NCBI GenBank assembly: GCA_914767715.1
Contig: OU612074.1
Coordinates: 9,129,501 to 9,193,500 of the forward strand
Direction: 5' to 3'
Source of the DNA: Membranipora membranacea
Lineage: Eukaryota; Bryozoa; Gymnolaemata; Cheilostomatida; Membraniporidae
DNA: 64,000 nucleotides
The position numbers and the translations under genes were made by a program. Shown in pieces: positions 30,908-58,300 of the stretch; the first letter of the stretch is position 1, and each line of letters starts with the position of its first letter. Below the pieces are notes generated by a model. The model was not told the DNA's origin. It ran no database searches and saw only the letters and a list, made by a program, of their open reading frames with translations.

Positions 30908-33900
30908 ATGAGTGGAGACATGTCAGAGTGCTGGTGGCTGAATTCAGGATCTTATACGCTAGAACAGCTTCAAAATAAAAACCATCCTAATGTAACCCAC
31001 ATGGTGATAACTGGTAACCTGCCGGAGAACCTATTTGAGCTAGCTCCGAACATCACTCATCTGTGTATCTGGAATACAGATGAAAGTGCAGCCACCAAAC
31101 TTTGGAGGTAGGAATTCACCTTGTAACTGTCCCTTAATTAGACCAAGGAGTAACAGGGTTGTTACTCCTTGATTAGACATGTTAATGTGTATATAGGCCT
31201 AACTTAGTGCAATGTGAGCATGTAAATATCTGGATTGACCTGATTCCGAAATTCCAAGTCATTGATTTTTGTTTTGCTTGTATCCTTCAAAGGGATTTCG
31301 CCTGCTAAAATGGGAACTCAATTAATAGCTGGTGTTGCTGCTCGTGAAACATCACCTTTTACTTTGCAGCTTATTGCAAACGACCCAACCAATTGCGCCA
31401 TCTCTAATCCGTGTGGTGGGATGGTGCAATCGGTTAGCGCCCACAATTGTATATCATTCATATATTTTTAATTTATTTGTTGAGGTTTTCTGAAAGCTAA
31501 CAGTCAATTATAAATTACTTGTTGACCTCCAGGACAAAAGATTACGATATGTTAGATTAAGTGTGCTATTATACACGGGAGAAGAAGATCAGTTGAAGTT
31601 GTTTCCCTTCAGTATCACATTCCATATTACAAAGTGTTCAGCGTTAACTGTGGTCTTATTATATAGAATAATTGGAGGGCTGCAGAATCTGGAGTTTTTG
31701 AATTTGTGCAGCAACAAGCTCAAGCAGCTACCAGAAAGGTAAGAATGCATAGCATGGGATTAACAAACTTAATAATGATTTATCTTACCTATCTGGAGAA
31801 TGTTGCATGATGTTAGAAACAACTTTCAAGTACACATTGCCGTAGAGGCTCAGTGTAGCAATAATGTGCATAGTGCCACCTAGCATGTCTTGACAAGCTT
31901 TGCTCAGAGTTTGTAGACTGATTTCAAGAGGGGACAACTCGGCCTCTCGACAGCTCATTCGCAAGAGTTGACAAGCTTTGTTCCCCCACCGAACAAAGCT
32001 TGTCAAGACAGGCTACGTGCCACAGTTTACAATATACAGCCTAACGGGGATGTCACAAATTCAACTTAGCCATAATATCTATTTGCAAAATTTCATACAA
32101 TGGTATTTATAAATTCTTGGATATTTTTCTGGCATTGTGTAATTCACAAGTCGCTAGGTTTTCAGTACATAGTCGTCAGCATGCTCTTCTTCTAGGAAGA
32201 TAACTCCTCACCATTATTATCAACCCAAACCGTGAAATTAACCATGGATTTTATCATCTTGATTTTCTGTTATCCATCAAATGTGGCCGCTTCCACAATT
32301 ACTATTGCCATGTTGATGTTTCAGTATAAGAAGCTTAAAACAACTACGGACACTAAATGTTGCAGATAATAATCTTCAGACACTTCCAGAATGGTAAGTT
32401 GTGTTATCTAGCCCAAGACAATTTAAATGTGATGGAAAGCGATAATGCTGTATCACAATTTACTTATAAGTACTCACAATATGAATGAATGAGTCCATAT
32501 CCGCGGTTACATCATTACTAATGCACCTTATCACTGATATATATTCATGGATTAGGGGAAAATATCTGACCATGAACATGTACTTGTGGCAATTCGTGTA
32601 TGATTGCTGGAAACAATATCTCATCTTTGATCTTGGTCCAAAAGTTCAGTAATGCTACAGCTGAACATTTGTAAACCTTAGTCAAGTAACTCGCCTGAGT
32701 TTTTGAAGGTCCTTACTGGGGCATCAGTCAATGCAAAATTTGCCAGAATTTTAGCTAGATACAATTACTGACACAAGGTTATATACTGATGTAATTTCTC
32801 CACAAATAGCCACACTGTGTATTTTACCTCTGAGATCCATGAATTCATATCAATAAACCTTATCACCACAGGATAGGTGGACTAAGAAATCTGAGAAAAC
32901 TAAGCTTAGGATTCAACAATCTTACCTCACTACCTGAGAGGTGAGTTTTTGTCAAACATTTCTTGACTATAGACAGTTTTCTGAGCTGTGATTTAGGCCT
33001 CAATTCGGAGTTGTCCTCTCTCCAGTTTGGTACTTTTAACCCACGCCGCATAGGAAAAACGTGCTGAAAAGAGGGTTGTTTTGATAACCGCTTATAATAG
33101 GATAAAAATTATTTTTGGTTCAGAATATGCAGCATTGAAAACTCATATGGACAGAGTTTGGGAAATAATTTTAGTATTTGGATAGTCAATTATAGCATTT
33201 TCTGCCTGTTTTGCGGACCATTTGGCAGAATTTTTCATGAGTTTCGTCACTAAAATTAAGATTTATCAATATTCAAGCCTCCAATGATTTGGAAACCCTG
33301 TCTCACGGGATTTTCAATGGTGCAGACTCTGAATCAAAACTCATTTTTATCCTAGCATATGCGGTTTTTAAGATAACCCTCTTTCAGCAGGTTTTTTCTA
33401 TGCGGCGTGGATTAAAAGTACCAAACTGGAGAAGGGACAACTCCTAATTGAGGCATAAATAAGAGCTCAGAAAACTGACTATTGATACTGCTAGATCATC
33501 TTCAGCCCTTGTGTTATAATCTTATGCAGGGCAGTACTTTAGGAAAAATGGTAGGGGAGGTGAAAATCTTTTAGGGTATCCAGTAACACCAGTTTGGCTA
33601 TTGTAAGCTCCTCCTGAGTCCCAAGTCCAAAGCCTCCAAAGCATTTGAATGAAATAGATAGCGAATAGAAGTCCCAAATGAACTGATTCTGACATGGGAT
33701 ATTCGACCATAGCATTTTTAGGCCACTCTATTGAGAATTCGAGGGGGGGCAGTGCGGGCCTGTTATGTATATAGAAGTAAAATTGAAGCTTGATAGTATT
33801 GAATTTTATTGTGTCATAGATCTGTTCGATGTGTCTTTCTATCGAATATAATTTCATTTTCTTAAGACAAGCATAATCATGTTGTTGATTGCTCTGCACG

Positions 33901-36900
33901 CCACATTTATTTTGGCTAAAGAATATTTGAATAGGGTCCATACCCATGACTTTTGCGCCAACTTTCGCCCAGCAGTGATTAGCAAGCATTCTAGTTGATT
34001 GCGCCTCATTTACTGTTTTAGTATTGGGGATCTAGAAAGCCTCCAGGAGCTTGATGCTTATAAGAACAAACTGGAGACAATACCTACAAGGTACTATTAT
34101 TCCCCTAAAATTTCATTCATTCCGTTCTCTGCATAATGATTCACAGTCTCCAGGAAGTGCTTGTTTCTTTTATTGCACTTCCGGGAGACTGTGACATCAT
34201 AATGCAGAGAATGAGAGTTACTTTCCCTTATGGGGGGCACTCTTCCCACCATCAATAATTCATGCCCAGTAGAGCATTTAAAAGTTTTCATTTTGCAAAT
34301 CTGACAAAAGTTCATCATAAGTAACTGCCTGACTATAACATGCATTGGTCTTTGGGTAGTCTTTGACTGGTCATTCCTATTCCTGTTTCTATGGGAGTTG
34401 TTGTACTTTCTGCAGCTAGATTTACATGCGTGGGTATGGATCTCAGCATTCGAGTGCACAAACCTTTTGTTATATCATAAAATATCATTGTCGGGAACTG
34501 TATTTTATTTATAGCGTCGGAAAGCTGAGAAACATGCTGAAGATAAACCTAGGACGTAACAAGCTCACAGTCCTTCCAGATAGGTGAGTCACATTATAAA
34601 TAATATGTAACTTTTTTCAATAGTTGTCAATGAATCTTTGTTTCACTAGAGGTTGTTAGACATACAGCATGATACATATCCAACCACAGACATAGTTAGG
34701 GTACCTGAGGAGTACCTAGGAGTCAGGAGTGGTCTCATTGTTAAGGATGCAGAATTGGGATCTTAGAGGTCCAATTTCTATCTCCTGCGCCTGCAGTCAT
34801 TCTTGATTTGGTACTGGTGCTCTATTCATCATAGCCGGAAAGAAAAATACCGGATGTCCACTGTGTGTTTGTACACCTCACATACAGTAAAAAGTTCCCC
34901 CACTACCTGTTCGATATAAAGAGTAGCCAGATCTACTGCAGGCAAGGGTATAGGGCGCCGCTTGAGTACAATGGGTCCCAGCACGTGTACTCTAGAGGAG
35001 AGAACTCTCTCCGCAATGAAGACTTAGACTTGACTGTATTCATAATCTTCTGTTACAGTGTATGTGAGTTAACATCGCTTCAGCATTTCAAAGCTCACGA
35101 AAATAATGTAGCAAATCTTCCTGACAGGTAAAGCATCATCGTCAGTACCTCCTCTTCCTTCACAGATCCTGGCCTGCCTCGCTCTTCCTAGAACAGCAAC
35201 TTGAAGACTAATTAGCATGATATTCTCTTGTACCACACGCTACCAAGCTTTTAAGTGGTCGTCACCCAATTGTTCGCCCCACATAACCTTGATAACAACT
35301 TAATAACATGGGCCTTATCAACAACGTTGGTTGCATGATTGTAATCGTTATTTGTGATCTGATAATCTGATTCTTCCTAGATTTAACTGATTGAGTACCG
35401 AAGAACTATTCTTGGATTGTCTACCAAACAATGACATGTATTCTACCAAACAATGACATGTATCTTGCAGGTTAGGAGACCTGAGAAATCTGAAGACATT
35501 GAGTCTATCGGGCAATCAGCTAGCATCTCTCCCACAAAGGTTGTTATCCTTATTTAAGTTATCTGGTTCCAAAACAATGCTTTCTATCTCCTTGCTAGGG
35601 AACAGGATATTCTAGACGATATTTCATTGCACTGTTTTTCTTCTTGGAGGGTTAGTTCTGTCTAGGATTACTCAATTTTTCTCACCCTAAATATTTTACT
35701 TTCTATATCATAGGTCAGCCTGACAAACAATACGCCTAGGTTTGCTTAGTAGCACTTAGAAAATTGAGTAAATATTTAACTGGACAAGGTTTCCATTTTT
35801 CTTTTTTAGTTTACAAGACTTGCAGTCTATCTCCTCTCTGGATATTTCAAATAACGAGTTTTTGGAAATCCCGCCCTGCCTATATCACTTGAGATCATTG
35901 CTTCATTTGGACTTGAAAAGGAATTCTAAGCTCCAGGCTTTAAATCCCGATATTTCAAGCTTGAAAGCACTGAAATGTCTCGAACTCGATTTCTGCCTTT
36001 CCCTCGTTTCCCCTCCTCATGAAGTGTGGAGCCGCGGTATTGAAAGCATCCGCCAGTATTATCAGGATCTATCTAAAGGAGTAGGTCACAGAATATCTGC
36101 TGCTACAGTTGCTGTTTTGGGTAAGAGCTTGGCCGGGAAAACTAGCCTCATACGGACTCTTCAAAGAAAGAAGCGAGTATTGACTACAAGGACTAGTGAC
36201 TGGGAGACAGATGAATCGACTAGAGTGTTTAATGTCGAGGAGGTTGTAACACCAGGTACAACACTCAGATTCTTAGATATGGGTGGTCACGAGATATACC
36301 ACAATACTTACCAGTTAGCTCTGAAAGATAGCTGTATTCCAGTTGTTGTAGTTAACCTCAAACAGTATAACACACTCTCAAAAGAGTCTTCTCCTATTGA
36401 AGCAGTTAGGACACTCTTCTTTGATTGGATGGCTCATATTTTCGTCTCCAACCCAGATGTTGACATTCCACAGGTGGTTTTTACACATCGAGACAACTTC
36501 ACAGCCGAGGAATGCTCACAACTTGTGCAGAACTTTCTCACCAGCACTGAGGAACTTAGAAAGATGTTGGTTGAAGAAGAAAGACACATAGATGGTGCAT
36601 GTGCCAAGATCAAGCAATTTGGAGGCCCAATCATCACCAAAGAATCAATTTATCTCATTGGGAATGAGTTAACCTATGACCTAGACACTGCAACATTAGA
36701 TAAGTTACTAGATGTGTTGAAAGTGTTGTGTTCTCGATTTATCCGAGACATACCTCAAGTGTGGGAGGTAGTTGATCTGAAACTGCAGTCATATGGTGGC
36801 GCGTTTTTGCTCTTTGAAGACTTTCTTTGTGAGTTGAAACAATGGTGTCATATGGAAGAGAAACAGCTCACAGTTATACTAGAATACCTTCATGATTCAG

Positions 36901-39900
36901 GCAAGATTCTTTGGTTCTCTGATCGCCCCGAACTCAGGCCCTATATCTTTCACAAAATCTTCCAAGTTTCGCGGCTCCTGAATGTCATATTCGATGAATA
37001 TAGCTCTGAAATGTGGAAAAAGAGGCTTTCTTCATTCACACCATTTCATACTTTGAATAAGCACAGGGTAGAAAAGGAGGAGTTTGAAGCCATGTGTAAC
37101 GTCTGTGACGACACTGGGCTTATGAATGAGGCATTGCTCCAGCACTTGATAAGAACAGAATCAGCATTGTCCTCTTTGAGTGAAGTGTCAGCTGGACTGG
37201 CGATTTTGCAGAACTTCAACCTCATCCATGGGCCTGTAGCCTACAGAGGAAACCAATGCTATATTCTTCCATATTTTGCCCGGGGCTTTTTTGATGCCAG
37301 CTCTCAAATCAAAGCTCATGATTTGAGCTTTCGTGCTGAGCTTTCCTTCAAAGGTCTAGCTCCGCCACCTTACTTATACAACACAACAAGCTTGAGCTCC
37401 CTACTGCAATATGGAGGGGACACTGAGACATTTTCTATAAGATCAAATGGAGTGCATGTGTATCACAATGACATCGATATCACATTGATACATGATAGTA
37501 AGGCACAGAAGTCAGTTGTTGAGGTAACTGCTGACCCTGAACACACCGCACAGATGTGGACACTCCTCAGGCAACAGGTTGCCGTATTGACTCGAGCTGC
37601 CGAAACATGGGTGACAGGTCGATATGTTGTCACAGTATTCTGTTCACACTGTTTGCTCAAAGGAGATCAGAACCCATCAAAGGAAATCAACCCTAAATGG
37701 CTTTCAGCTACAGCGTCGCCTAAAATGCGAAGCCGGTACATGATGTGCAAGGGAGACCGGAAAGTGCCTTCTTGTCTGAAAATGCCATGTGAGTTCCACT
37801 AAGTGTAGTTAAGCACTGAGTGTGCACTTTTTAGCAGCAGGGGCTGCCTGATTTGCATGAGTCGATGAAAAGTCCTAACCAAGTTTTAGTCCACTCATTT
37901 CTATACACAAATATTAATATTATTTTATGACATGAAAATGTTTGAAATGTTAAACAATGTTTTGATCATAATTTATACAGGCTCAAATCTAACCGAAGCT
38001 GATATCGACTCACTAAGACACTATATAGAAGAATGCGTCAGCAATCCTATCATCCATCCTGGTGAGTAGTTTGACTAATCCTGGAATCAAAAATACTCTT
38101 GCAGCTGGCTTGTCTAGAATTGATAGAAAGATATTTCAATGAAGTATTAATAAGATAACAACCAAGATGTGTCCTCTTTTACATCCTTGCGGGTTTTATT
38201 TGTCTTGATACACGTCTTGCCAAATATTATTTGTGAGAAATCAGGGTAACGTATTATCTATCACTATCACCTATAAGCTTCATTCACCTGCATTGTGTCC
38301 TATCCTTCTTTTCTGATACCTGTACAAGATTTATGTATCATCACCCTTCAACATCATTACTTTTATTTATGTTACACGTTTTATTTGTAGCAGTCGACCC
38401 TCCTGCTGGCGGTGATACGGAAAACACTTATAATATGATCAAGGAATTCACACCCACTCCACATGTAGAATCAAAAGATGAGGCAGAGAACCCAGCAGAT
38501 ATGGATATGGAAGGAATAGAAGGCGCTGAGACAGAGCCTGCCACAGAACATCATATTGCTGTGACCAATCGCACACGATCTGATAGTATCGTCTCTACTG
38601 ACGGAGAAGGTTACCTCTCTCCCTCTCTTGAAGATAAAGATCTCCACGAAATCAGGCTTCGTGCTGCACCAACAACGGAATCAGCAATAAAATGTCTATA
38701 TGATGACTCTGTTGAGGTGAGTATGTGAATCAGGTTATGTATTGCAATATTTATTTATCAGGTAACCTAGCTAATATGCTGGCTGTTATTGGCTGGTGGA
38801 TGGGAAAGAGCCAATGCCAGGTCAGATGGTATTGGTATATTATAGTGAATGCTATATAATTCAGTTTCACTTTCATTATATCTCAATAGGTGCTCTCCTT
38901 GGCCTGGCATTGGCTCTTTTTCCCGCCAAACAACCAATCATATCAGAGCAACTACATTGTCTACAAGAAACCCATTATAGGTGTCTTGCGTTGCTGATTC
39001 AGAGAAGAGAGATTTTAGCTTTCTTGGTTTTCTCATGCAGGTGTACAAGATGAGTCCGGGTAAAAGAGGGCGAGCGCTTATCATCAATATTGAGAACTTT
39101 TATGGAGTAAATGCTTTACAGCTTAGGCGTAAAGGCTCAGACATTGATGTGAAGAACGTCAAATACATGTTGAAATCTCTGGATTTTGAATTGGCAGATG
39201 TTCAGGAGAATTTGACAGCACAGGTGAGACTATGGGTATCTTATCTCTTTTCCTCACACTTTTTGAATTAATTTTGAAGGACTACAGCATTTTGTTAAAT
39301 TTAATCCCAGTATTCCCCATAATGATACGACATTGAATCGGGTAGACAGTTTTCTGAACTCTAATTTAAGTCTCTATTCGGAGTTGTCCTCTCTCCAGTT
39401 TGGTACTTCTAACCCAAGCCGCATAGGAAAAAGGTGATGAAAAGAGGGTAATCTTGAAAACCACTTATAATAGGATAAAAGTGTGTCTTGATTCAGCATT
39501 TGCATCATTGAAAACCGTGAGGGACAGGGTTTCCAAATCATTGGGGGCTTGAAAGCTGATTGGTCTCTATTTTAGTGACAACATTCATGAAAAATACCAT
39601 GAAATTTGTCCGCAAAACTGTCAGAAATTGATTTAAATGACTATTCGAATACCAAAATTATTTCCCCAACGTATGTCTCCATGAGTTTTCTATGGTGCAG
39701 ATTCTGAATCAACATTCGTTATCATCCTATTATAACCAGTTTTCATCACCTTTTTCCTATGCGGCGTGGGTTAATGTACCAAACTGGAGAGATGACAACT
39801 TCAAATAGAGGCTTGAATTATAGCTCAGAAAACTGTCTATTCAAATGTACAGTTATTTTTAATTCAAGGGGTTGGTAGATTCACTATGAGAGTAATGTTC

Positions 39901-42711
39901 CCATTCATCACAAGTGTATTTTACTGACAATGAGCTCAACAAAATTTGATATATTTTCAGGAGATTTTAGATGCTATAAAGAGGGAGACAGAACATCCTC
40001 ACCACGGGGACTTCAGTATGTTCTTCCTTTGTCTGATGAGCCATGGCAGTGAAGATGAAGTCATTCTTGGATCAGATCAAATGGGCGTCAAGCTAAAAGA
40101 CATCTACAATCTCCTCTCCTCTTCTAACTTCTCAGGAATGGCTGGCAAGCCAAAAGTGGTGGTTGTTCAAGCTTGTGCAGGAGGTGAGTTGTCAAAATCA
40201 AAAGTTCCGATTAGTATCCGAAAGTATTCGGCGCCAAGTTGCTTTCAGTTTGAAGGCAGGTTGAAGCACACCTGTGGCATCAATTGAGCCCAGTAGTCAG
40301 TAGACTGCAGCGGCATTAGAACCAAGGACGTCCAACGCTTGCGTATTAGAGGGCAGGCGCCCTAACCAACTGGGCTACCTCCTACTGTTCTTACTAGTTG
40401 ATATCAGTGCTGCTTATGTATATCGGCTGACCACTGTCTTCCATACAAATCTACCTACCTGAATACTCATACTTTGTTATCAAACATTGTATCAATATCA
40501 TTTTATGAAGCGTATTCAAACGTATCCTCGGTTGTTTTAAGAGTGATATATTTGCTTACATTTGCTGCCAAATTTCTAATCAAGATCCCCACAGACCATC
40601 ATTGGCAAATGTGTTTTGCTTAAGACTCAGCATATATCATTCAAATCCATAATAAAGTTTAGCTGTATTAATATCTAAGAATAAATATCATCAGTTTTGC
40701 AATTCCTTTCAATCAATTTGAATCGGCCATCCAATTTCATATAAACTTGCAAAAATCTCATTTGTTACGTCACTGATTTGTCCATTATTGCAGTTGGTGT
40801 TGATCATGGAGATGCAACCTCTAAAAAGCTTGCTGTAGGACAGCTTATCAAACCAACAATACTACAGGTGCCAGCAGCATTGCCGACTTCCCCAATAGCT
40901 GCACCTCTGAAGATTAGTCACCTCAACCCTGCAGATCTGCTGATCATCAAATCAAGCTTTGAATGTGAGTTTGACACCGATCGAATATTTTAGTCTCGGC
41001 TCATACTAGATATTTAATCTGAAAAATAATGGCAGGCTATCCCAACAAGCTTTGTCTGAGTGACAAGGCTATATCCAAAAACCTTCAAATCTGAATTTCA
41101 GCATTTATCTGATACCATAGACACACTACTATGATGGAACAAAATGATTGCATGGCTAGGTTTTCTCCATTGGTGATGTATGAGGTATTAATCTTGTATT
41201 TTTAATTAGCCTGGGATTCAGGCCAACAATGTGGGCTTTTCTGTATTATGGGTTGGTGTTGGATATTGCTTCTGTGGTGTTATCTACTCGTGTGTCACCG
41301 TTGTGCATTTCTGACTTTACCCATGTGTTTGTGTTTTGGTTTTGTTTTGATTGGCTGATTGGTTTTGGTTTGTTGTTGTGTGGAGTTGTCTGTTCAACAC
41401 ACCCAACCTTAATAGATAACTCCCAATTGTTGGACTTGAGTTTATAGGTTTGTTGTATTTTGATAGGTGTAACCATTATTATGATTTCATTACAGCTTAC
41501 ATATCTATCCGATGTGATGTCAGAGGCTCCCTGCTCATACGATGTCTTGTCACTACTCTTCTGAAGCATGCCTGTCATAGAGACCTTTTCAGCCTGTTTG
41601 AAATAGTGAGTAGATATTTGATGTTGTAAAATAACTGTTATGTAGGCAGCAGTGCAATAGCATTTTCTAGCACCTACCCACAGAATATGTGCCATTTTTG
41701 CAGCCGCATATCAAATGTGGAAATAAAAAAGTAGTTATAGTGTTCTCAAAGTTTATGGAGGAAACTGAATTGGTGTCTAATCCCTATTTTTGAGATATGT
41801 GAAATGACCGGAATACCCTCATTAATAACTGTTGGCTGACAATCACAATAATTGAAACATATAAGCAGGGCTCTAAACCTGGGAGGATCCAAAACCTGAG
41901 TTTTGCCGATACCGCGTTGCACGTGGCATTTCAAAGTCGTAAAACGCCCTGTGCACAAGTAGCTTAGAGTTGTAGAGCTCTGTTAGCCTCCTCAATGGGC
42001 CAGGCCACCAAAGCCCAGAAAGCAATTTAGGCCTCTGCCCATGAATGATAATGGGTTTTTAGAGTTGTTAGCAGATCATTGATATAGATTATAGAATCAC
42101 TGTAAAATTCATGTATTTCTTTTATCACAACATAAATTGCTTTTTTTATAATCTTACAACTAGGCCACACCAAGAGGAATTCCCCAACTTCGATGAATAT
42201 GAGGCCAAATCTGAGTTTTTAGGTCATATTCTAAAATCCCCTGAGTTGAACCCAAAAACCTGAGTAACTCGGGCTAAAACTGAATGGTTGAGAGCCCTGA
42301 TATAAGGTCTGTGTTTGAATCAAGATCAAGGGAATGTGGTCACCTTATGCAGACTTAGGCTCAGAACAATCAATCATCTTATATGAATATAGAATATAAT
42401 TTTCTCATTTACTTCGTCGAGTTCAAGGCAGTAAAGTTCCAATCGTGCATTTGGAGTCGCTCCCCCATACTGGTAATCCCCTGACGGCTTTTCAGTAGTG
42501 TGGGTGCAATGCAAGCAATATCAGATCTTATCTTTTTACTCTACATATTCACTCTTACTTTTCACAGGTTCAGGAAAGGGTGAGCAAGATAAGTACTGAG
42601 TTAGCTGAGAAGTATCCAAACACATGTACTGGGCAGACTGCAGTGCCGATCAAAACATTTACTGGTGGAAGGAAACTATACCTGTTTCCAGGTCATCATC
42701 CACGTAGCTAG
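30908..42711 (+). CDS. LRR-ROC-COR GTPase fused to a C-terminal caspase, 16 exons
   Basis: Exons: 30908-31107, 31667-31738, 32325-32393, 32872-32940, 34022-34090, 34515-34583, 35059-35127, 35471-35539, 35810-37788, 37981-38061, 38391-38716, 39041-39223, 39961-40183, 40794-40964, 41496-41605, 42568-42711. They join in frame to 1300 codons and TAG. Order: leucine-rich repeats (about 45-300); ROC GTPase with P-loop GKSLAGKTS (333-341), DMGGHE (385-390) and THRD (454-457); COR with YLHDSGKILWFSD (from about 588); tail; acidic linker (about 889-1024); caspase p20/p10 (about 1028-1300) with His1113 (MSHGSED) and Cys1157 (QACAG). ROC-COR proteins dimerise and act as GTP-controlled switches; caspases cut after Asp. 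I know no standard family with this order. No signal peptide, membrane segment, kinase, CARD or DED is seen. The ATG at 30908 follows an in-frame stop 24 bases upstream. A gene-prediction join of two genes is the main alternative. Confidence 0.85.
32498..32865 (+). mobile_element. Repeat family R3, copy 1
   Basis: Shared with 50938-51935: ttcatggattaggggaa, gctggaaacaatatctcatc, ccaaaagttcagtaatgct, ttttagctagatacaattac, tgacacaaggttatat and tccatgaattcatatca in the same order. Confidence 0.75.
32969..33482. mobile_element. Foldback MITE F1, copy 1 (ROCO-caspase intron 4)
   Basis: The ends tagacagttttctgagct and agctcagaaaactgacta are inverted. The arms continue through ccagtttggtacttttaac and cgccgcataggaaaaa, mirrored near 33390. 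TA at both ends. No transposase. A second copy is at 39343-39840. Confidence 0.85.
34118..34372. mobile_element. Repeat family R1, copy 2, with hairpin
   Basis: It opens with an inverted repeat cattctctgcataatgat / tcataatgcagagaatg enclosing cttccgggagactgtg and its partner, then the R1 body as at 20468-20648. Confidence 0.8.
35810..37788 (+). other. ROC-COR exon of the ROCO-caspase gene
   Basis: A single 1979-bp exon holds the last LRRs, the whole ROC domain and COR. ROC landmarks are VAVLGKSLAGKTSLI (G1), RFLDMGGHEIYHNTYQLAL (G3) and VVFTHRDNF (G4 position). COR is recognised by LEYLHDSGKILWFSDR and HKIFQVSRLLNVIF. The region after COR (about residues 735-888) ends in a cysteine- and basic-rich tail and is not assigned to a known domain. 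Being intronless amid small exons, it may derive from a retrocopy; that is inference. Confidence 0.9.
38785..38945. mobile_element. Short inverted-repeat element in ROCO-caspase intron 11
   Basis: The arms gggaaagagccaatgccag and ctggcattggctctttttcc face each other about 80 bp apart. A related, diverged piece with gagagagccaacgtcaggtc is at about 17690-17765. Confidence 0.65.
39343..39840. mobile_element. Foldback MITE F1, copy 2 (ROCO-caspase intron 12)
   Basis: Same inverted ends and inner blocks as copy 1, including ccagtttggtac, gccgcataggaaaaa and the central tttccaaatcattg. It lies between the two exons that encode the caspase p20. Confidence 0.85.
40231..40388 (-). mobile_element. 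tRNA-derived SINE, second copy (ROCO-caspase intron 13)
   Basis: On the minus strand gtaggaggtagcccagttgg is the A-box region; the B-box (ggttctaatgc) is mutated. The body matches 19944-20100. It lies about 50 bp after the exon carrying the catalytic Cys. Confidence 0.75.
41212..41375 (+). repeat. Repeat family R2, copy 2 (ROCO-caspase intron 14)
   Basis: Starts gggattcaggccaacaatgt and follows the copy at 23425-23590 through ttttgattggc. Confidence 0.7.
41866..42299. mobile_element. Non-autonomous hAT-like element
   Basis: The ends cagggctctaaacct and ggttgagagccctg are inverted, and atataag occurs directly on both sides, consistent with the 7-8 bp target duplication of hAT elements. No transposase frame was seen. 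Confidence 0.75.
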
Positions 42712-45480: not shown

Positions 45481-48400
45481 ACTTACGGTGGAATTCTGAC
45501 AGTGCATACTAGAGTGATGAAAGGATATCGACTGAACTTGTGGAGCCTACTGTGTAACTTGTCGTATAGATCTGCTGGTATCTGTTTAACAAATCCGCCG
45601 TACACTGTTTTTGTTTCCCATGTCACATTCAACATGTCGCCCTCACAATTGTCTATAGGGAATTTTGGTGCCAATCTACAGTCTACAATGAAGAGTATTG
45701 TACTTTGCATGATATGACAGGACATGATAAATTCAGTGAAAACCAAATCAGAAACGAATGCAAGATTTTGAAGAGATTTTCATCAGCAATGAGATAATAA
45801 GGTTGTAAATTGTTACATTTTGTAAACATTTCCCATGAGATTACCCTTTTCTTTATCTTTGATCAATTATCATTGTCATTGTCCAATATTCATTTTAATT
45901 TGGGAGGCTTGGTGTATGCTTGGGCATCGAAAGAGTATTACATATTTATTGTGAAACTTCATTACGGTTAACTTCTTATCTGAGTTTAATCAGGGCGGAG
46001 CTTAAAGTGCAACCAAGGTTTCAAACAACTTCTCACTGATGGCCATTGATTAATAGCAGACTGCACCTTCTGCATGGGGAAAAAGACAAAATATAATTCG
46101 GATGATTATTCAGCCAGAATTCTTGTGAAACATTTCTTCCATCAGGCACTCAAACTCAGGTAAAAGAGAATACCACATAGCAGTTTCCTGTTCCTGTTAT
46201 TATTTAGCCTGTGCTCTATAATTATTACAGCAAAGTCTTGGAACCTCCCCTAAACTGAAGTGTTACCCAGCTTAGAGTCAGCAACTACTTTGAGTTTTGC
46301 ATCGCGTAATGCACAAAGCTGATGCTGCCCAGCACATTATTTGCTACCCATTAATGCATTGCTGCGAAACCTTGGTTGCCCTTTAAACTTTTAGGTATTG
46401 GCCAATCACAGGCAGTGAGTAAGTAAGATCATGTTATAAAAAGAGGTGTGGCCTATCGAGTGAAGGCTCCTCCCCTTTCCATTTTCCCTGGTTTAATAGT
46501 GCTCAAATCCTGCCCAGGTTGACGAGTAGAACCATTTCATTATGGACCACATCCTCATTTAACTGATAATATACATTCATATCACATGGGGAGAATTGGT
46601 GTGTGAGACAGCCTGATGTACATACAATTAACCTTTTGAGTTCGATAGAGCTCAAACATCGCCCAGGTTGAAGTGAGTAGCATTTCACCATCGACCTAAT
46701 ATGTAGAGGTTACCTCAATAACTTATATGTGTGTTATGTGCTAGTGTTATGTTATGTGCTAGGAGTCAAATATAAATTTTGAAATATTGTTGTGAGTATC
46801 ATCTCTCATGCTATCAATGGCATTGCTCTGAACTTTTAGTTTTTGTGAGATGAAAACGCCAATTTTAAATTGGGCAAAAATTTAGTACACATTGTATGGG
46901 ACAATACCTTTTTTACAGACATCATTTAATGCATCCATTGCATCTACAGCCATCATTCTCATGGCACTATAAACTTCGGGATGGTTGAGTAAATAGCATT
47001 CCACTTTGTACTGAGCAAAAAAAATCAGCCTCCTTCGTAATGAAAAGTCTGCAAGAATAAGTTTTAAAAATAATAAATCGCATGCATATTTCAGGTATGG
47101 CACCCTTGGGTATGGCACAGACAACGAACTCCATATCTGGAATGGCATTATTAGCTTTATTTTGCTCAACAACGGGCTCGTAAAAATAGCAACTCCCTAG
47201 TAGATTTCTAGAAAAGCCCAAATCTTCGAAGCTGAAAGCAATTTATTACTGTTTGCAGTTTTGTAAACAAGATAACTTCCCAGGCTATATTATTCATGCT
47301 AGTAGGGACAGCAAATCAGATCAATCTCAGATCGACCCCTGCGTTCTAACTGTATAAGGTTATCCCATAGACCTACTAATAATTATAAGTAGTAGGTCTA
47401 TGGGTTATCCTGATATTTCCGTTCTATGAGAAGGATTTATTTCAGTGGGCACGGTTAACCTATCGTTGGGACAAGGAACCTTCCTGGGTACTAAGACTAG
47501 CTAGATACAAAGATAGATATTGCTGCTGATATTAGGTTTCAGGGGCAGAGGATATGAAACAAGGCCCTGCAAGACCATGTCAGTTTTCAACATGTTATTA
47601 GGTAAGTGTATAATAATTGAGCATGAACAATAGGGATCGACTCAAACCTGTAATCGATACATCCATTTCCATAGGGCAGCCTTCGGAGTGCATTTTGTAG
47701 GTACCATTTGGGAGATTCACCCATAAATTTTGGCCAAGTTGAACAGGGGCCACCCGAAGATGTTGCTCTGATTCAGCTGTAATATGTTCGACCACCACCT
47801 TCCTGGGTTGGCAGCGAGGATATGGAACCTCTTCATACCCTGCAATGCAGAAAAATTCTTTAATAGCAGTGATCATCTAATAGGCTGGAAGCAGCCTAGC
47901 AATAAGTGCTCTAAAAAATTATTGGCAATGCAAAAATAACATTATTGTTCAATTGCAGTTACTGATACAGTATAATGAAGGCTTGATAATATCAACTCTG
48001 TAAAACATTTGATCATCAAGTCAAGAATGAGAGTGTACCTCTAGATTGCTGTGTTCCGCCATCTATGCCTGATTGTGATTGTTCTTCATTGCCTTGTTGT
48101 GATGCTCCGTTACCCCCTGACTGTGATCCAACATCTTGAGCTTGCTGAGGGCCTTCATGTGTTCCTGATTGCCCAGCTCTGTTTCCTCCTACCTGTGAAC
48201 CACCAAGTCCACCTGGTTGCAATCCTGTATTTACACCCTGTCGCGAGGAGCCGGCAAATCCTGTATTTACACCTTGCTGGGATCCGGGATATCCTCCATT
48301 TACACCTTGCTGTGGCCCGGGAAATCCTCCTGTTTGGAATCCTGCCTTTACAGTTTGTTGGGATCCAGGTAATCCTGCATTTACACCTGGTTGGGATCCG

Positions 48401-49338
48401 GGATATCCTCCATTTACACCTTGCTGTGGTCCGGGAAATCCTCCTGTTTGGAATCCTCCATTCACACCTTGTTGGGATCCGGGAAATCCTCCATTTACAC
48501 CTGGTTGGGATCCTGGAAATCCTCCTGTTTGGAATCCTGCATTTACAGTTTGTTTGGATCCAGGAAATCCTCCATTAACACCTGGTTGTGACCCTGGAAA
48601 TCCTCCTGTTTGGAATCCTGCATTTACAGTTTGTTGGGATCCAGGAAATCCTGCATTTACACCTGGTTGGGATCCGGGATATCCTCCATTTACACCTTGT
48701 TGTGATCCAGGAAAACCTGTTTGGAATCCTCCATTAACACCCGGTTGGGATCCGGGAAGTCCTCCATTAACACCTTGCTGTGACCCGGGAAGTCCTCCAT
48801 TTACACCTTGTTGTGATGCGGGAAATCCTCCATTGACACCTTGCTGTGATCCAGGAAAACCTGTTTGGAATCCTCCATTAACACCCGGTTGGGATCCGGG
48901 AAGTCCTCCATTAACACCTTGCTGTGACCCGGGAAGTCCTCCATTTACACCTTGTTGTGATGCGGGAAATCCTCCATTGACACCTTGCTGTGATCCAGGA
49001 AAACCTGTTTGGAATCCTCCATTAACACCCGGTTGGGATTCGGGAAGTCCTCCATTAACACCTTGCTGTGACCCGGGAAGTCCTCCATTTACACCTTGTT
49101 GTGATGCGGGAAATCCTCCATTTACACCTTGCTGTGATCCGGGAAATCCTCCATTTACACCTTGTTTGGATGCGGGAGATCCTTCATTTACAACTTGTTG
49201 GGAACCGGGAATTCCTTTATTTACAACTTGTTGCGATGCAGGAGATCCTTCATTTATGCCTTCTTGTATTCCGGGAAATCCTTCTGATTGGAATGTTTCA
49301 TTTACACCTTCTTGAGCGTATTCAAAACCACCTTGTCG

Positions 49339-49391
<53 letters not shown>

Positions 49392-52300
49392 GACCTCCCG
49401 ATCCACTAGATTTGGATCCTTCAGGTACGGTTTGTGGTAGATTATCAGTCAAACATTGCTGTTCTGGTTGGTATATGGACTTGAGTTGATATTTCAAAAA
49501 GCAGATGTCGTTGTAGATAATAGTGGAATTCCCTACAGGTAGTGTAACTTTAATGGATGATGTAACATTCATTGTCATTGTATCTGTGATATTGGCAACC
49601 TGAATTACCTCCGATCTGTTGAGACATGGTTCTTCGACTGGTACCAAATCTAAAAAATGGTAATGCAAGAATATTGTTATCTCATAATGAAAGTGAGGTA
49701 CTTATTTAAAGCTATTTGGGCACCATTTAGGAATAGCAATCGAACCCATTTCCTTTCGTCATTACTGAATTCGGTACTGATTTGTTTAAAGATAATAGTA
49801 ACCTTCACAAGTACGGCCAGTGAATTCATCAGTGCAGTTGCATGTGAAGTCAGCAATGCTATCTGTGCACACTCCCTCATTCATGCACGGATTCGGAGAA
49901 CAGTCATCAACGTCGACGCTGCAGTCGTCCCCCTCGAACCCATGATCACAGATGCACTGATGTTCTTCTGTGTCCAGATCATTGCAGACACCGTTATCAG
50001 AGCAAGTTGATTCACCACAGCACAATACAGCTGGTGAGAGGGGGAAAAAATTGAGAGACACTTTTATTATGCGGTAAGCAGCTAAACAGGTGACACGGTT
50101 AGGGCTCACTCCATGTCTGCAAGCAATGGAGCATCACAAAGTTGCTCATCGTTCATGGTGTATTTAGTCGATGAAGACATTTTTTATTATCATTGATTAC
50201 CACATCCAAGGAAGTTCTTTATTTTTTTTAGAAGCTTAGGCCTATGCCTCTTTTTACTGTAACCATTGCTCGGGATGGACTATTAGATAAATGAAAAAAA
50301 ATATCTGAGTGGTCTTTCTCTTCTTAGGTTAATTGGGCAGCAAATTTCATAATTGAGTAAGCTATCATTGAAAGCAACAATTTTTCTTTGTCTAACTAAT
50401 TGGCAAAGTAAATTCAGCTGTACCAGTTTCACAAGAATCGCCTGCCCATCCTTCCTTGCATGTACAGGTGTATCCGGCCCCTGCGACAGCGTCACAAGTT
50501 CCATCGTTCGAGCAATAATGAGACGAGCAGGACTCAACAATGACTCGACAATCATCTCCAGAGAATCCGGGAGGGCATTGACAGACATGTACACCTTCTT
50601 CCAAGTCAGAACACATTTCATCACCACCATCACATGGAGTATCAGCGCATTGAACGGTGTCTTCAGCTGTGAAATTGTAGTAGTTTTAAGTTAATTGATA
50701 ATTAAAATAGGCAATTAATAAACTACAATTGGCTCTAAAGCACTAACTTTTAATGAGCTCGGTCTTGGACAAATTCGCAAGCTCATTCAGTGAGCTCACA
50801 CTTAGGCCGCTGCAGATTGTTTCGGGCTGGAAACTGACTTTTGCAACAGTAGCAGTTCACTGGTTGGAGCTATGATGTGTACAATATAATCACCAGTCCA
50901 TTAGGAGTAATCATCTTTAAGTTATGTACATTGATTGAATTGAAAATTGGCGCACTCCACTGCTATATATTTATGGATTAAGGGAACCTATTCTGACCCG
51001 GAACAAGTATATGGCAATTTATGTATACTTGCTGGAAATAATTTCTGATCTTTGATTTGTCCAAAAGTTCAGTAATGCTAGAGCCTACTCCTTGCAAACA
51101 TATAAAACATTTGAGAGGGTCACCAAACCTATGATATCTGGCTGTATGACGGACGAGTCCCAGTTCGCCTACAGAGAGCGCCTTAACAATAAGTGCCTTA
51201 GAATGTACGCCACTGAGAATGACCTCTTTTTGAGCTAGATAAGCTACCTTCAGGGCGCTACCGTGCCTTGAAGTGTAGAGTTGATATTCGTAAGCATACT
51301 GACTCTCGTGATCTGACTGGGCATGTAGATCACTGATAAACTAGGCTATAGTTACCACAAAGTAGATGTCGTAAGGCTAAGTATAAATCATGCGTGACTT
51401 TAAATTGCGCATGTGCAAGAACAATGAGTTTAGTCTAGGTTCTGAGAGAAAATATGGTCAGGGAGAATGGGATAGCCCCTGCATGAACTGCCAATCAAAA
51501 TCAGCTAATAGTGACAAGAGAGAATAACTATCAATATCAATTCCGCACGCATCGAAGAGCATACCACCAGAGCAGGTAGCCAATCAGATGGCTTCGGAAT
51601 TCCGAGGCTCAATTTTGCAGAGATCAGCTCATGCCCAGAGCTGAGCATGCGCAGAATGATTCGTAAGAACAGTTTTAGAGCACAATGCATCAAATTTTTA
51701 AATAAAACATTTTTCTGAGTATCATTTTATTTTATAACGGTACAATTTGCCTGGGTTTTCTATAAGGTTGTTACGGGGCGTTAGTCAATGCATAACATTA
51801 AAGCTGCCAGAAGTTTAGCTACATCCAATTACTGACACAAAGTTATATATTGATGGAATGCCTCCACAAATAGCTGTACTGCGTATTTTACCACCAATCC
51901 ATGAATTCATATCATTGGTGCGCTCAGTCTTATGACCTGGGAGAGATTTCTGAGTTCAACGACAAAAACTCACTTTCTTTGATGGTTTTATACTGCACCT
52001 AATTGATTACTTACCCTCTAGTACAACAGGGTCTGCTGTGTCTTCAGCAGGACAAGCAAGCTGATTATGGAGCAAATTAACACAATCAGTACATGAATCC
52101 CCTCCGCAACTCACATCATCTGAAATCGATGCAATCAATTAATATGTTGTGTATCTGTTTAAAAGTTGCATGAAAATAAATTTGTGACATCAAGGAGCAG
52201 CAATTAATATTTAGAATTCTGTTAATGTGAATGATGAGTATGAGTAGATTCATGGTGTCTACTTCACTCGAGAAAAGAAATCGACAGCCGCTCTTCGACA

Positions 52301-55300
52301 TACATTGTAAGCTGGTTAATTGAAACTTTATAATTCAAACTCCTGTTAATTCAGACCAGGCAAGTCGGTCCTTTCAGTCAGATCTCAATGCATTCTAATG
52401 TCACTTAATTCAAACTCTGCTTAATGATAACAAATTTTTGTGGTCCCCAGAGGTTTGAATTAAGTGAACTGTACTGTACTCATAACCAGAAAAATTGATT
52501 GGACATTACTTAATTTGATACCCTTTGGCTGAAACAGAACACACAGTCACCTTCCCTCGTAAATATAGGTAGGTGATCCATCAGTACTTGTGAGGACAGC
52601 AAGTTTGCATACTCCGCTGCCCCACACTCAAAACACTCAAAACTGAGAAACCCTGTGTCAAAAAGTTTCAGATACAGTCCAGGTAAGAGCACTCATGAAA
52701 CAGCACTACTGAACTTGTTTTGTTCCAAATGCTGGTAAAATCATTGTATACCCGACTGAGAATACAGAATTACCGCAGTGCCAGCAAACTGATAGACTGA
52801 GTTACGTTCATGAATGCATAATCCATGTGCCAGACTTTAGAAACCCTATGATGACTAGTCAATGCCAAATCCTATAATCATTTTTCTTTCAAGTTAAATT
52901 CCTCCTTAATTTCAGTTGAGTTCCCTAATCCTCTAAGGAAAAATCAACAGTATTAAAACCTAGCAAGAAGAGTCACAAAGAACTAGTAATTGGTTGTACA
53001 ACTTGGTTAATCAGGCTCGACCATAGACTTAATATGTGATATTAATATCAAGTCTATGGGCTGGATTGAAAGGTATAAGCAAAGCTAAAACTCGACCGAC
53101 CCGGATCAAATACCCCAAAGAGATTCCAAGAATGCTAGTACGGATGTTATACCTGTTCCATCCTTAACGCAAATGTAGAGAAATACAGTAAAAGGTATAC
53201 ATATTATTTTACCATACATCATGCTTTTAGGATTAATCTGGACTGCAACAACAGGAGTTCAATATAGTTATAAACACTAGTTGAACATAAAAAATTAAAG
53301 CGACACCGCGTACCTTCATCACAAGTTGGACTAGAAGTGTAGCCTGCTGCACAAATACATGCAAAGGGAGTGATACCAACAGGCTCGATGCAAGTGCCTC
53401 CATTTGCACAAGGGTTAGGGAAACAGCTTATAACATCTGTGAGGCAATCTCTACCGGCATAACCATCATGACAGACCATGATCACTCCACCACCATAAAG
53501 TTCCTCACATGATCCTGTTTCTGAGGCCTGGCACTCCACTACATCTGTTGGGGCATAATAAAGTACAGTTAAACATTGCTGACTGTAAGAGTTTTTAAGG
53601 GAATATAGGTTATTACGGAGATAGGCAGTAGCCAAATGTTTTGCTTGAAAAGCCAGCAGAACTAATAAAGGAGAAGAAACCTTGCTACTGAATGTGCTAG
53701 CAACAATATGTGAGTTCGGGGAGAGCCCCAATCACTTCATTTCCATGGATTGACCTGAGGCTATTTTCAGGGCTTTTCGAGCCATCGACGAAACACCTGC
53801 CGGTTCGCACTGAGCTCGAAGGATCAGTTTGCACTGAGCTATGAAAGCACCAGCGGGCTGGCGTGGCTTAGTGGTTAGCGGTCTTTGATGTTTTTATCTC
53901 TGCTCTATCCATGGAAATGGATGCATATTTTGAGGGCGAGCCAAGAGGTGACAACTCGGCTCGATCTAGACTAAGCTAAAACCTCACATGGAAACATGGT
54001 GAATGCAAGGTCATGATTCATCATATCATTGATCATCATGATATAATTCTACTTTCCTGAAAATAAACTTTTGGTAAATGAAGCAAGGAGTTCCTCCTTG
54101 AATGAAGTAACTAAAATGATATAATTGCATGTCTAGATTTATCGCTTTGCATCATCGTTTGTTTTAATACGGCCAAGCCAGATCCTATCTCAATATACAG
54201 ACTTTGGTTATTTGCACTTTTTTTTTAGCTTTGCCTTAATAAAATCAAGGTAGATCCGTGTTTTCGGGGTTTGTTAGCTAAGTGAAAATAACAGTAAAAA
54301 ACCTATAATGCACTTTGAGGGGAAAACTGTACCATTTTCCTGTTATTTGTACACAGCAAATTTGATCAAGATGATCATCTTACCCTCCAAGCATGTCTGT
54401 CCAGTCCATTTTGGTGTGCATGTACACAAAGGAAATCCTGAGTCCTGATCCTCACATAAACCACCGTTGTGACAATTGTCAGGGTGGCAGAGTGAGACTA
54501 TTACTAGACTACAGTCAGTACCTCCAAAACCGGGATCACACTCACAATGTATACCCCCACCTTCAAGTTCAGAGCATAGGCCCACTCCAGAACAGCTTAC
54601 CGACACAACACACTCAGTTATGTCTAAAATAAAGAATATATCATTTCAGCTATTGGTCAGACCGCTGTTACTCCTTGGTCAGACATGCCCACTACTGAAG
54701 GTTTGGTACCTTTGAGCAAGCTGCTCAGCATGATTGACAAAATAGAAGGGCGAGACGGACAAAGTGAGAATTTGATCCAGAGAAAGAACTTGTTGTTTTT
54801 CCTAAGATCATTCTCTGCATTATGATGTCACAGTATCCCGGAAGTACTTGTTTCTTGTTTTGCACTACCTGGATACTGTGGCATCATAATGCAGGGAATG
54901 AGAGTTACCTTTCCTTATGGGAGGCACTTCTTCCACCATCAACAATTCATACCAGGTATAGCATTGAATTTTTTCCCATAAAAATCTGACACAACTTTAT
55001 CGTAAATAACTGCCTGACAATAACATACATTTGTCTTTGGGTAGTCTTGATGTGTAACTTAATGGGCAATACATGAATGCTCATTGGCTTGTTTGTTATT
55101 GCATATATCACAAACTATGCTGAACCATGATGATGTGATTATATTATGGTCAGATATTCCCTAACGACATTATAAGAAAACACACAGTGAATTATCATGT
55201 GAGCCTGAAATAGCAGGCATGGAATCCAGCGAGTTATTCCAAAGGGATTAAGAAGTCAGGCCAATCATGTTTTGAGTATCACTGAAATTCAAACCATAAG

Positions 55301-58300
55301 CTTAAACCAACTGTTTGCAAAAGTGTTTATATTAATTCAGCTGCCAAACTATCAATGTCACCCAAGTGTGCAGCACTGATGTTAACACTATAGTACGTTT
55401 GCCTGGCGCAAAGCCAATGGGATCATGGTGCTTCCATATCTATAACTTCAATGGAACAACATGAATATTTTATCAACACAACACAAGCTCGAACATACGA
55501 GTCAATCACTGGATTTTCAATGCACAAATCAAGGGTGAATAATACCCTGATTCACACATACATTATACAATGAGTTTATTTACCATCCCCGCAATGCTGT
55601 CCTTCCCAGCCAGCGCGACAGTTACATCGGAATGTCGGCCCAGCAGAAGACGGTTCCGTTCCAGAAGACTGCCTCCTCTTTCGTGATTGAAAACTTCCTG
55701 GCATGTTTAAATTTGGTTCTCCACTTTCACCATCCCCAAGTTGAGAACTAGAAAATGTATCCACGCATTCTCCATTGTTCAGGCAGGGTGCCGAGTCGCA
55801 CAACTTTAATTGGATGCGACAATCTTTCCCACTGAATCCTACGTTGCATTCGCATATGAACTCTTGATCAATGAGATCTGTACACACTCCATTAGTCTGA
55901 GTGCAAGATTGAGCTAATTCTCCACCACATACTGGTATTTCTGTAGAAATAAACCAGAGTGCGAAGGAAAAAAAAACATTTTCTTTATAACTACTCTCAG
56001 ATCAAGTTTTATGGATGTTTGCTGACACCGTTGTTCCCTAACTGTTCCGATGAAATCAAACACAGCAGTCAGTACAAGCTCCACTCCAAACAAAATTGAA
56101 CTCGAGTTATTGAGGGGGTCTTTCAATTCTAATGAATCGCTTGATGATTCGACTTCTAGACTGAATGTAGGAAAATCCAAACTTTTTCTTTGGTGAATTT
56201 TGTTCCCAAATACCCTGAATTCCCAAAGTTCCCAAAATTCACTTTGAATAAATTACAGTGTACGTACGTTTACCCCACATAATCAAATAATTATTTTATT
56301 TTGTTTGAACATGGGATAACACCGCCATTCCCTTATAATGTACTTACGTTCTTCGCAAAGGGGTCCTTTCCATCCATTTTGACAGGTACAATAGAAATCA
56401 TTTTGGTTCGGATCAACTGCGCAGGCACAATGTTGGCTTGTTACAACATCGCATGGATCATATTTTATGTCACAGTAAGTACCACTGTATCCTGGCTTGC
56501 AGATACCAGTTTCGATACTATCTTGGATCTTTAAAGTACAGGTCCCTGCACTCTGGCAAGCATCGTACATTCCGGTTGAGGCCTTAACTGAAATTAAATT
56601 GTAGTAATTAAATTGCATTCTACAAAGTCTGTGATATCATCCACCCAATATTGCGACTGTTAAGACTAAACACGTGAAGTATATCGGGCCTTTGTTCAAC
56701 ATTCCAACTAGTGGCTGAGCTACGTATTATCATATTTAAATTTTTTGGGCTCAGCGTTTGGTTGAACTGCTTTGCACTGAGAACTTCAGCAGTATACTAA
56801 CTCGTGCTCAGTGTCAGAGCATCCAGAACTAAATTCTTGTCAGTTCAAGCTTACTCAGACGCAATAAAATTCCTTGTCACAAATGTTTTCTTGTGAACCA
56901 TTTGTGAGTCGAGTGAGAACCGGTCCGATGAGCTCCACAGCAATAGACAGGCACTCTACCTATTACTAGCCTGTGAGTTGACTCTGATTGGCTGGTCGGA
57001 CCCATCAAGCAGCCAATAGGATTAGAGTCAACGTACTGACTACTTATTCTCTATTAGTACAGATGTTTGACTTGGCGCCACATTGGTTTATATACCCCCG
57101 TAGTATTGTAAACTGTCCCCCGCATGGAAATGACCCTGGGACGCTGAGCAATATTTTAAACTGTCCCGCTTACACTTAAACAATAGCGACAGGCATAATG
57201 TAAACCGTCCCCTAGTTATTTTAAACTGCCCCCTTCCCTTTGCTGACCATTCCAACGAGGCAAAATAAAGAGTGTCATTATGATAGCTAGAGGATGGTAT
57301 GCACTCGATGTAGATTGCAGCGTGAGCTTATGAGTGCTTCTCCAAATAAATGCTCTGTTCACTACGCCACAGCTGTATGTTACGATATTTTAAATTGGGC
57401 TTACAAGATTCACAATAGGGTCCTCCCCATGAGCAACCACAGTTGCAGCTTGTATCACCCTCAGGTGCGTCAACACACGTTCGGCCATTACGACATCGAT
57501 CAGCAATTTGGAGCAATTGGTCGCAGCCATAGATAAAAGTTGTGCAGGTAGGCCCACTCCAGCCTGAATCACACATGCACCGAAGAGGATCACCTTGAAC
57601 TTGATAACATGTCCCATGTCCATTACATGAATCTTCCTCACATAATACTGTAGTTGGATTAGCTATGGAAAAAAAAAAAACATTAAATATTTTCATGCCT
57701 AGCATAACGAGTCCTCTAGAAAAGCTGCCAAGCAAAGCGCAAAATTCGGAACTGAGGAATGCCACTATGTGTATATGCCATTTCTGCCAAATGTAAATGT
57801 TGGCAACAGAATTTTCAAAGGCAATATTGATTTTGACAGGAGTAACCGTAGACATGTCGTTGTGTCAGGCTGGTAAGGTGGGTTTTTGGTTTAACGCCGT
57901 TAGTAAATGCTAATTTTCTCAGGTTCCTAGCAGGGGTAATATCTCAAAATACAATGTAATAATACGCGTTAAATTCTATGGTCAATTAATACTATTCAAC
58001 CGTAGTTACTCAAGATAGTTTAACCTAGGGAATTCACTCCTCAGTATTACAAAGGAACTTCACTGGGAAACCCTATTGTAACTTCCTTATTATGACTGTA
58101 CTTAGGAAAGTTTACAAGAATGCGACAAATTATGTATGACCTGTCTATGTTTATGTCTACACACTATGTTAATAAACCAGATTAATATCTCAATTAGTCT
58201 ATTATGTCAATAATCAAGTGCTTTGTTTAACAAAAGGCAACCCAAAAATAGACTTCGTTCTACCGTTCACAGTTCTGAAAAGAAAAGGCTACTTGATAGA

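Follow-up and report, generated by a model that had tools for sequence, protein, structure and literature searches.

In the best-known animal pathways, sensing and caspase activity mostly reside in different proteins, which adaptors bring together; caspase-4/11 is an exception. A gene of the bryozoan Membranipora membranacea raises the question of whether sensor, switch and protease can also be parts of one polypeptide. The gene lies in a 64,000-nucleotide stretch of DNA (hereafter the window; C10:9129501-9193500 of a genome assembly of 339 Mb in 18 contigs), for which a first-pass annotation described a single chain with LRRs, a ROC-COR GTPase and a caspase. Such a chain would allow a direct test of how a Roco switch drives output, with the caspase as a simple protease read-out of switching; for LRRK2, this is stated as an open question in the excerpted text of PMC11052575. 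If real, a family of dozens of such genes would add a poorly known branch to animal immunity or self-recognition, one that parallels the LRR-GTPase-COR-caspase systems of bacteria and the NLRs of plants.

Gene structure and domain composition

The gene was rebuilt from sequence anchors as 16 exons between 30908 and 42711 on the + strand, with GT-AG borders at all introns (Table 1). The joined coding sequence has a length divisible by three, no phase break and a single terminal stop, and encodes 1,300 aa, in agreement with the sixteen exons without a frame break that had been described initially. The AATAAA that the description places after the stop is not alone: six more lie inside the gene, in exon 1 (30974), in exon 11 (38686) and, in four cases, within introns. 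A tblastn search of the window with the gene's protein and its 19 relatives gave no further match at 1e-3, and Rfam gave none over the window. Introns 4 and 12 contain two related MITE-like elements (32969-33482; 39343-39839) with long imperfect terminal inverted repeats of up to 101 nt and 90% complementarity.

Table 1. Features of the rebuilt gene, in window positions
Feature	Position	Strand	Basis
Exon 1, N-terminal cap ahead of the LRRs, aa 1-66	30908..31107	+	rebuilt CDS
Exons 2-8 with introns, one LRR per exon	31667..35539	+	rebuilt CDS, Pfam
Exon 9, 1,979 nt, last LRRs and predicted ROC GTPase and COR, aa 229-888	35810..37788	+	
ROC P-loop (G1), GKSLAGKTS	36120..36146	+	motif
ROC G3 motif, DMGGHE	36276..36293	+	motif
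ROC G4-like motif, THRD	36483..36494	+	motif
Exon 10, post-COR stretch, aa 889-915	37981..38061	+	rebuilt CDS
Exon 11, acidic Ser/Pro-rich linker	38391..38716	+	rebuilt CDS
Exon 12, caspase p20 start; presumed Asp-pocket Arg R1054 at 39128-39130	39041..39223	+	
Exon 13, caspase p20; His1113 (40042-40044), Cys1157 (40174-40176, QACAG)	39961..40183	+	
Exon 14, p20-p10 linker and p10 start	40794..40964	+	rebuilt CDS
Exon 15, p10; second presumed Asp-pocket Arg R1222 at 41510-41512	41496..41605	+	
Exon 16, p10 end (KLYLFPG) and stop codon	42568..42711	+	
AATAAA polyadenylation-like signal, 94 nt past the stop codon	42805..42810	+	

The N-terminal half of the chain is modular at the level of its exons. 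Residues 28-64 in exon 1 match the N-terminus of P0003, a protein of the bryozoan Watersipora subatra (E 5e-6, two-sequence comparison). Exon 2 (72 nt) and the following six LRR exons (69 nt each) all run from phase 2 to phase 2 and share 41-59% DNA identity. Over the whole protein, Pfam reports LRR_14 at 3.2e-29; matches of the LRRs to models of plant-pathogen effectors reached at most 62 bits against cut-offs of 450-600 and were dismissed as generic LRR similarity. The 13 Pfam families matched at E ≤ 0.1 include neither NACHT nor NB-ARC, and neither a kinase nor a death domain. Exons 10 and 11 together hold 31 D/E and 9 K/R residues over 136 aa, and the counterpart of exon 10 in the Watersipora protein P0002 was modelled as a helix.

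By its motifs (P-loop, DxGG and G4-like), the middle of the protein has the features of a ROC GTPase, and a COR domain is predicted to follow it directly. Because the Pfam scores for Roc (2.4e-05, 25.0 bits, cut-off 27 bits) and COR-A (0.0029, 18 bits, cut-off 35.3) are both below threshold, ROC-COR was checked by fold. In a fold search with an AlphaFold2 model of exon 9 (pLDDT 82.6), Roco proteins hold ranks 1-27, and the model matches LRRK1 (8e05, 7.5e-22), the C. tepidum LRR-Roc-COR structure (6hlu, 4.0e-18), RocCOR (3dpu, 3.3e-15) and an isolated COR (3dpt, 3.2e-9, TM 0.65 by target length); the best PDB match of the ROC-COR sequence alone is 4wnr (E 0.018). The end of exon 9 (37641-37788, aa 840-889) carries a C-x-H-C motif, one more Cys further on and a terminal 'PC', which vary little or not at all among 17 aligned relatives. 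These residues, at the end of COR and just ahead of the linker, would suit a possible zinc site.

The C-terminal part is a caspase of the animal type by predicted fold, with both p20 and p10. Peptidase_C14 is matched at 7.9e-35 over aa 1033-1264, and the closest PDB sequences, CED-3 (1.4e-19) and caspase-3 (2.4e-19), are nearly tied. R1054, H1113, Q1155, C1157 and R1222 all align with both of these caspases; we take H1113 and C1157 to be the catalytic pair, and the other three to be Asp-pocket residues. The first four are invariant in nine aligned proteins (that of the window and eight from Watersipora), and R1222 is replaced by Lys in P0003. As in the initial description, this is a full p20/p10 caspase; the catalytic His and Cys and the Asp-pocket arginines are retained, and the enzyme is predicted to cut after Asp. 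The label of executioner in that description is not supported: nothing separates initiator from executioner, since CED-3 and caspase-3 are nearly tied in sequence, and caspase-11, -9, -4, -7 and others are tied within 1 Z as matches to a structure model of P0002. From the long regulatory N-terminus, we infer an initiator-like protease.

Continuity of the chain and extent of the family

A first protein search with the ROC-to-caspase region of the window protein found eight proteins on four contigs of 61-76 Mb; these named relatives all come from one bryozoan, Watersipora subatra. In each of them ROC-COR (truncated in one) is followed by a precomputed caspase domain. Six align over at least 97% of the query region, P0001 over 58%, and P0008, which begins inside ROC, over 87%. 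The automatic name of MFHAS1-homolog was rejected, as it ignores the caspase. P0001 has six fibronectin type III matches after its caspase and then a hydrophobic, possibly membrane-spanning end; it may be a membrane-tethered version or a gene-model error.

These relatives bear on the junction between the two halves. Over residues 860-915, which span the exon 9/10 border, the similarity to seven of the eight proteins exceeds that of 295 or more out of 300 shuffles; P0001 fails this test, as 43 of its 300 shuffles do equally well. For exon 12, none of the 300 shuffles reaches the real similarity in any of the eight. Conservation of exon 11 by itself is significant in just two of the eight, and there is an in-frame ATG near the start of exon 12. 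Both points favour a rival reading, in which the first-pass annotation and the Watersipora annotation have wrongly joined a ROCO gene to an adjacent caspase gene that starts at that ATG. We regard this as very improbable and reject it. Eight joined gene models lie on four contigs, and the motif VYxM, which opens exon 12 right after the exon 11/12 border and thus precedes and includes the Met of the ATG, is invariant in all nine proteins. A profile search, which scored the best 8,000 candidates, added 11 ROC-COR open reading frames of 623-735 aa (P0009-P0019) from contigs of 2.6-22 kb. Judged by eye, each corresponds to the exon-9 unit, and similarity stops in all 11 at the 'PC' where exon 9 of the window gene is spliced; the tails beyond it are dissimilar and range from a few to some 80 residues, as at a shared splice site. 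The final argument against two genes comes from the Membranipora genome, where 64 of the 75 loci show the same order and strand, and other arrangements of a listed caspase within 10 kb are absent (see below). The first-pass description of LRRs, ROC-COR and caspase as one chain is strongly supported, by the rebuilt coding sequence, by the Watersipora proteins and by the loci of the same genome.

When ROC-COR and the caspase of these nine proteins are placed in separate trees, the two trees have their two supported clades in common and show no supported conflict; in the caspase tree the deeper branches are weak and long branches are flagged. Scans of viral contigs gave no relatives. A caspase-only protein search with P0004 returned just P0004, P0008 and P0002 from 1,805 candidates and missed at least five relatives already found. 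Word matching thus detects relatives poorly, and the fact that the protein searches brought up no other phyla is weak evidence.

Within the Membranipora genome, scoring of 75 out of 222 candidates for the window's ROC-COR gave at least 75 matches, of which 74, the window gene included, are open without a stop. For Peptidase_C14, scoring of 140 out of 515 candidates gave at least 145 matches, each exon being counted separately. These counts are lower bounds from exon-level matches, as distinct from finished gene models, and some of the matches may be pseudogenes. At 55 of the 75 ROC-COR matches, the same strand carries a listed caspase no more than 10 kb downstream (median 1.4 kb, range 0.8-9.9 kb); none lies upstream, and none on the opposite strand, within 10 kb of any. 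Among the remaining 20 loci, a family HMM recovered a caspase exon in the 1.5-kb flank of five (L038, L047, L048, L050 and L055; E 6e-10 to 1e-5, L050 being the weakest at 1e-5). Downstream DNA further gave a clear caspase at L062, L063 and L064 (E 4e-25 or better) and at L066 (8.7e-27), and a divergent caspase-like domain after ROC-COR at L061 (E 0.0009) and L065 (0.0002), both on contig C3; the reversed DNA of L061-L066 gave no match to the HMM. In all, the analysis thus covered 66 of the 75 loci: 64, including the window gene, have a clear downstream caspase and two a divergent one. The other nine all lie on C3, as do L061 and L065; at one of them, L059, the 1.5 kb covered gave no caspase match. 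The caspase piece of L061 scores 15.2 bits against Pfam's 21.4. MSHG occurs in both L061 and L065, and a QACQP frame further on in L061; by these sequences the two may represent a subfamily whose protease differs or is inactive.

The catalytic motifs are widely retained. Among the 30 best caspase loci, some of which are not beside a ROC-COR exon and some of which hold only part of the domain, the His motif is present in 26 and the Cys motif in 26 (matched frames). The window gene has an intact P-loop, as do six of the seven Watersipora proteins that reach that site (P0008 starts after it). These observations speak against the idea that the fusion is expressed with its GTPase or its caspase as a mere scaffold, and no GTP-gated protease; we consider this improbable, with the sub-threshold Roc and COR scores, the divergent caspases at two loci and the loss of the P-loop in P0004 counting in its favour. 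P0004 has a broken P-loop (GKSSSRKK) and an altered DxGG, yet complete caspase residues, so GTP is not required in all members; P0004 is possibly a GTP-independent one.

An LRR-like motif was found within 1.5 kb before the ROC-COR match at 28 of 30 loci, a stretch that is partly the start of the same exon, and within 1.5 kb after it at five of 30. Strict one-LRR exons of 66-72 nt were recognised by a crude pattern at four of 30 loci, one of which (L055) is unconvincing as an LRR; this exon design may therefore not be general.

Many of the relatives are clustered like plant disease-resistance genes, with caspase clusters, for example, at C1 31-37 Mb, C5 3-8 Mb, C9 0.2-2.5 Mb, C3 22-24 Mb and C10 22-24 Mb. 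No listed ROC-COR lies within 12 kb upstream of 87 of the 145 caspase matches, which are solo caspases and/or members whose ROC-COR falls outside the 75 scored; arrays of solo caspases may thus exist too. The nearest relatives of the window gene in its own genome are 39-40% identical, which marks it as a diverged copy that is not close to any array member.

A ROC-COR tree of 30 of the 75 Membranipora sequences, seven Watersipora sequences and 11 others, drawn from the midpoint and subject to long-branch warnings, falls into two halves that each hold members of both species. Species-specific Membranipora clusters with very short branches fit recent duplication. As caspases are present in both halves, the simplest account is that the fusion is older than the divergence of Membranipora and Watersipora, with separate expansions thereafter.

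Relation to known systems

Bacteria offer the closest likeness of architecture. Bacterial LRR-AP-GTPase-COR proteins have been described with at least 24 C-terminal domains, caspase included, and have been proposed to be counter-invader systems (Kaur et al., 2021, PMC8195603, as excerpted). The LRR-AP-GTPase(ROC)-COR-caspase form has the same one-chain order as the window protein, with several paralogues possible per genome. It is prokaryotic, with at least 24 alternative effectors, whereas the window protein is encoded by a spliced gene and its protease is nearest to CED-3 and caspase-3. The window protein falls within the definition of bacterial AP-GTPase conflict systems given in the same source, as a likeness of architecture to proteins known from descriptions. 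For metazoan DAP, the excerpted text names a kinase (PMC8195603).

Animal Roco proteins share the core. Vertebrate MFHAS1/MASL1 has LRR-ROC-COR in common with the window protein and, as described in part of a Roco review, consists of LRR and RocCOR only, so that the window protein adds the linker and the caspase (PMC6337361). LRRK1 and LRRK2, which provide the best structural matches, likewise place an effector enzyme after LRR-ROC-COR, a kinase in their case and a protease in the window protein (PMC6337361). DAPK1 is likened here as a ROC-COR protein tied to cell death; it has a kinase before RocCOR and a death domain, and no LRR (PMC6337361), whereas neither kinase nor death domain was found in the window protein. 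Brown-algal LRR-ROCO proteins form a large family of candidate immune receptors with one 23-residue LRR per phase-2 exon, like the window gene, although in the sections cited LRR-ROC-COR is the sole architecture, with no effector enzyme (PMC11378527).

Among caspase-based systems, NLR inflammasomes and apoptosomes are alike in function, as they combine an LRR or other sensor with an NTP switch and a caspase. Their switch is a STAND ATPase (NACHT or NB-ARC), unlike the ROC GTPase of the window protein. Caspase-4/11, the sensing part of which is a CARD, provides a functional likeness in that sensor and caspase share one chain, without the LRR or GTPase of the window protein. In inflammasomes and apoptosomes the caspase is recruited in trans via CARD or death-fold domains rather than fused (partly from PMC11121540, as excerpted). 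Dimerisation is described as what activates caspase-11, a protease that is also a sensor in the cytosol (PMC6284101).

Combinations of Roco with TIR in Aplysia are already in print (PMC9334734). The portion of the Roco review cited names three groups, none with a caspase (PMC6337361). Among the matches listed from the open-licence PMC literature, no title or abstract mentions an animal ROCO-caspase, and a search of the text of caspase papers for LRR, GTPase and ROC terms found no such protein. We file the window protein as a ROCO member by its core, in a large family, with an effector not found described in animals in the open-licence literature.

Possible mechanism and cellular role

The best reading is that this large family encodes receptors with an initiator-like caspase under GTP control, which would serve immunity or the regulation of cell death. 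For the window protein, we think it probable that it is a single-chain intracellular receptor-protease, which would couple ligand binding to cell killing or alarm. The LRRs would form the sensing surface at which a ligand binds. ROC-COR would act as a GTP-dependent dimerising switch, the nucleotide state and dimer geometry of which the ligand would alter, and the flexible acidic linker would tether the caspase to it. Rearrangement of ROC-COR could then bring two caspase domains together and activate them by induced proximity, upon which the paired caspases would cut themselves in their long linkers (13 Asp residues in aa 889-1032, two in aa 1155-1206). The active caspase would cleave cell targets, most likely leading to cell death or alarm. 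Counting against this reading are the distance of the window gene from all array members, the poor conservation of exon 11, the broken P-loop of P0004 and the two loci with a divergent caspase.

Several steps have precedents in the literature, as excerpted. Roco proteins are regulated dimers, the dimer or monomer state of which varies with nucleotide (PMC6337361), and apical caspases are activated by induced dimerisation, followed by self-cutting (PMC11121540). CtRoco is monomeric with GTP (PMC11052575); GTP might therefore turn a dimer-activated caspase off rather than on.

A broader proposal is that bryozoans evolved a large repertoire (at least 64 genes in the Membranipora genome) of one-chain 'inflammasomes', with LRR sensors, a GTP switch and a caspase of their own; in the window gene, the LRRs would be built from shufflable one-repeat exons. 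Such proteins would be the animal counterpart of the LRR-GTPase-COR-caspase proteins with which bacteria defend themselves, and would do the work that NLR arrays do in plants. We see an even chance that this holds. The predicted functional parallel to inflammasomes or plant NLRs that was drawn in the first-pass annotation is plausible and is strengthened by a family of at least 64 genes with recent duplicates.

The same chain, with an active caspase, could also serve developmental or housekeeping cell death, such as the breakdown of zooids, or non-lethal proteolysis, in place of immunity. Caspases act in the development of many animals, and the zooids of bryozoans undergo cyclic breakdown. A conserved role of this kind would suit the existence of P0009, a counterpart of the window gene from another source with 67% identity. 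Conflict genes, more than housekeeping genes, tend to occur as large families in which neighbours are nearly identical, as is the case here, and we consider this alternative role unlikely.

Another proposal draws on the colonial habit: the genes would form an allorecognition family, in which LRR variants tell self from non-self and the caspase kills at the colony contact zone. The excerpted text of PMC8195603 counts bryozoans among the colonial animals that show allo-incompatibility, and the large family with recent duplicates would fit. The Pfam matches of the window protein include no extracellular domain, which speaks against such a role, and we hold it to be improbable. An intracellular receptor-protease is the reading that we prefer.

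Elsewhere in the window, EGF-like domains were found by Pfam in three of ten open reading frames tested at 48019-57864 on the - strand, and this region probably encodes one or more extracellular proteins; it includes a long open reading frame (48019-49701, - strand) with glycine/glutamine-rich repeats and no Pfam match. On the + strand, an open reading frame at 7330-7770 with no Pfam match at 0.01 contains a P-loop stretch, GEPGLGKTTCVYAM, which to us recalls clamp-loader-like ATPases. Two tandem arrays lie next to each other at 58741-59228 and 59276-59667, with units of 59 nt (8.3 copies) and 40 nt (9.8 copies), respectively.
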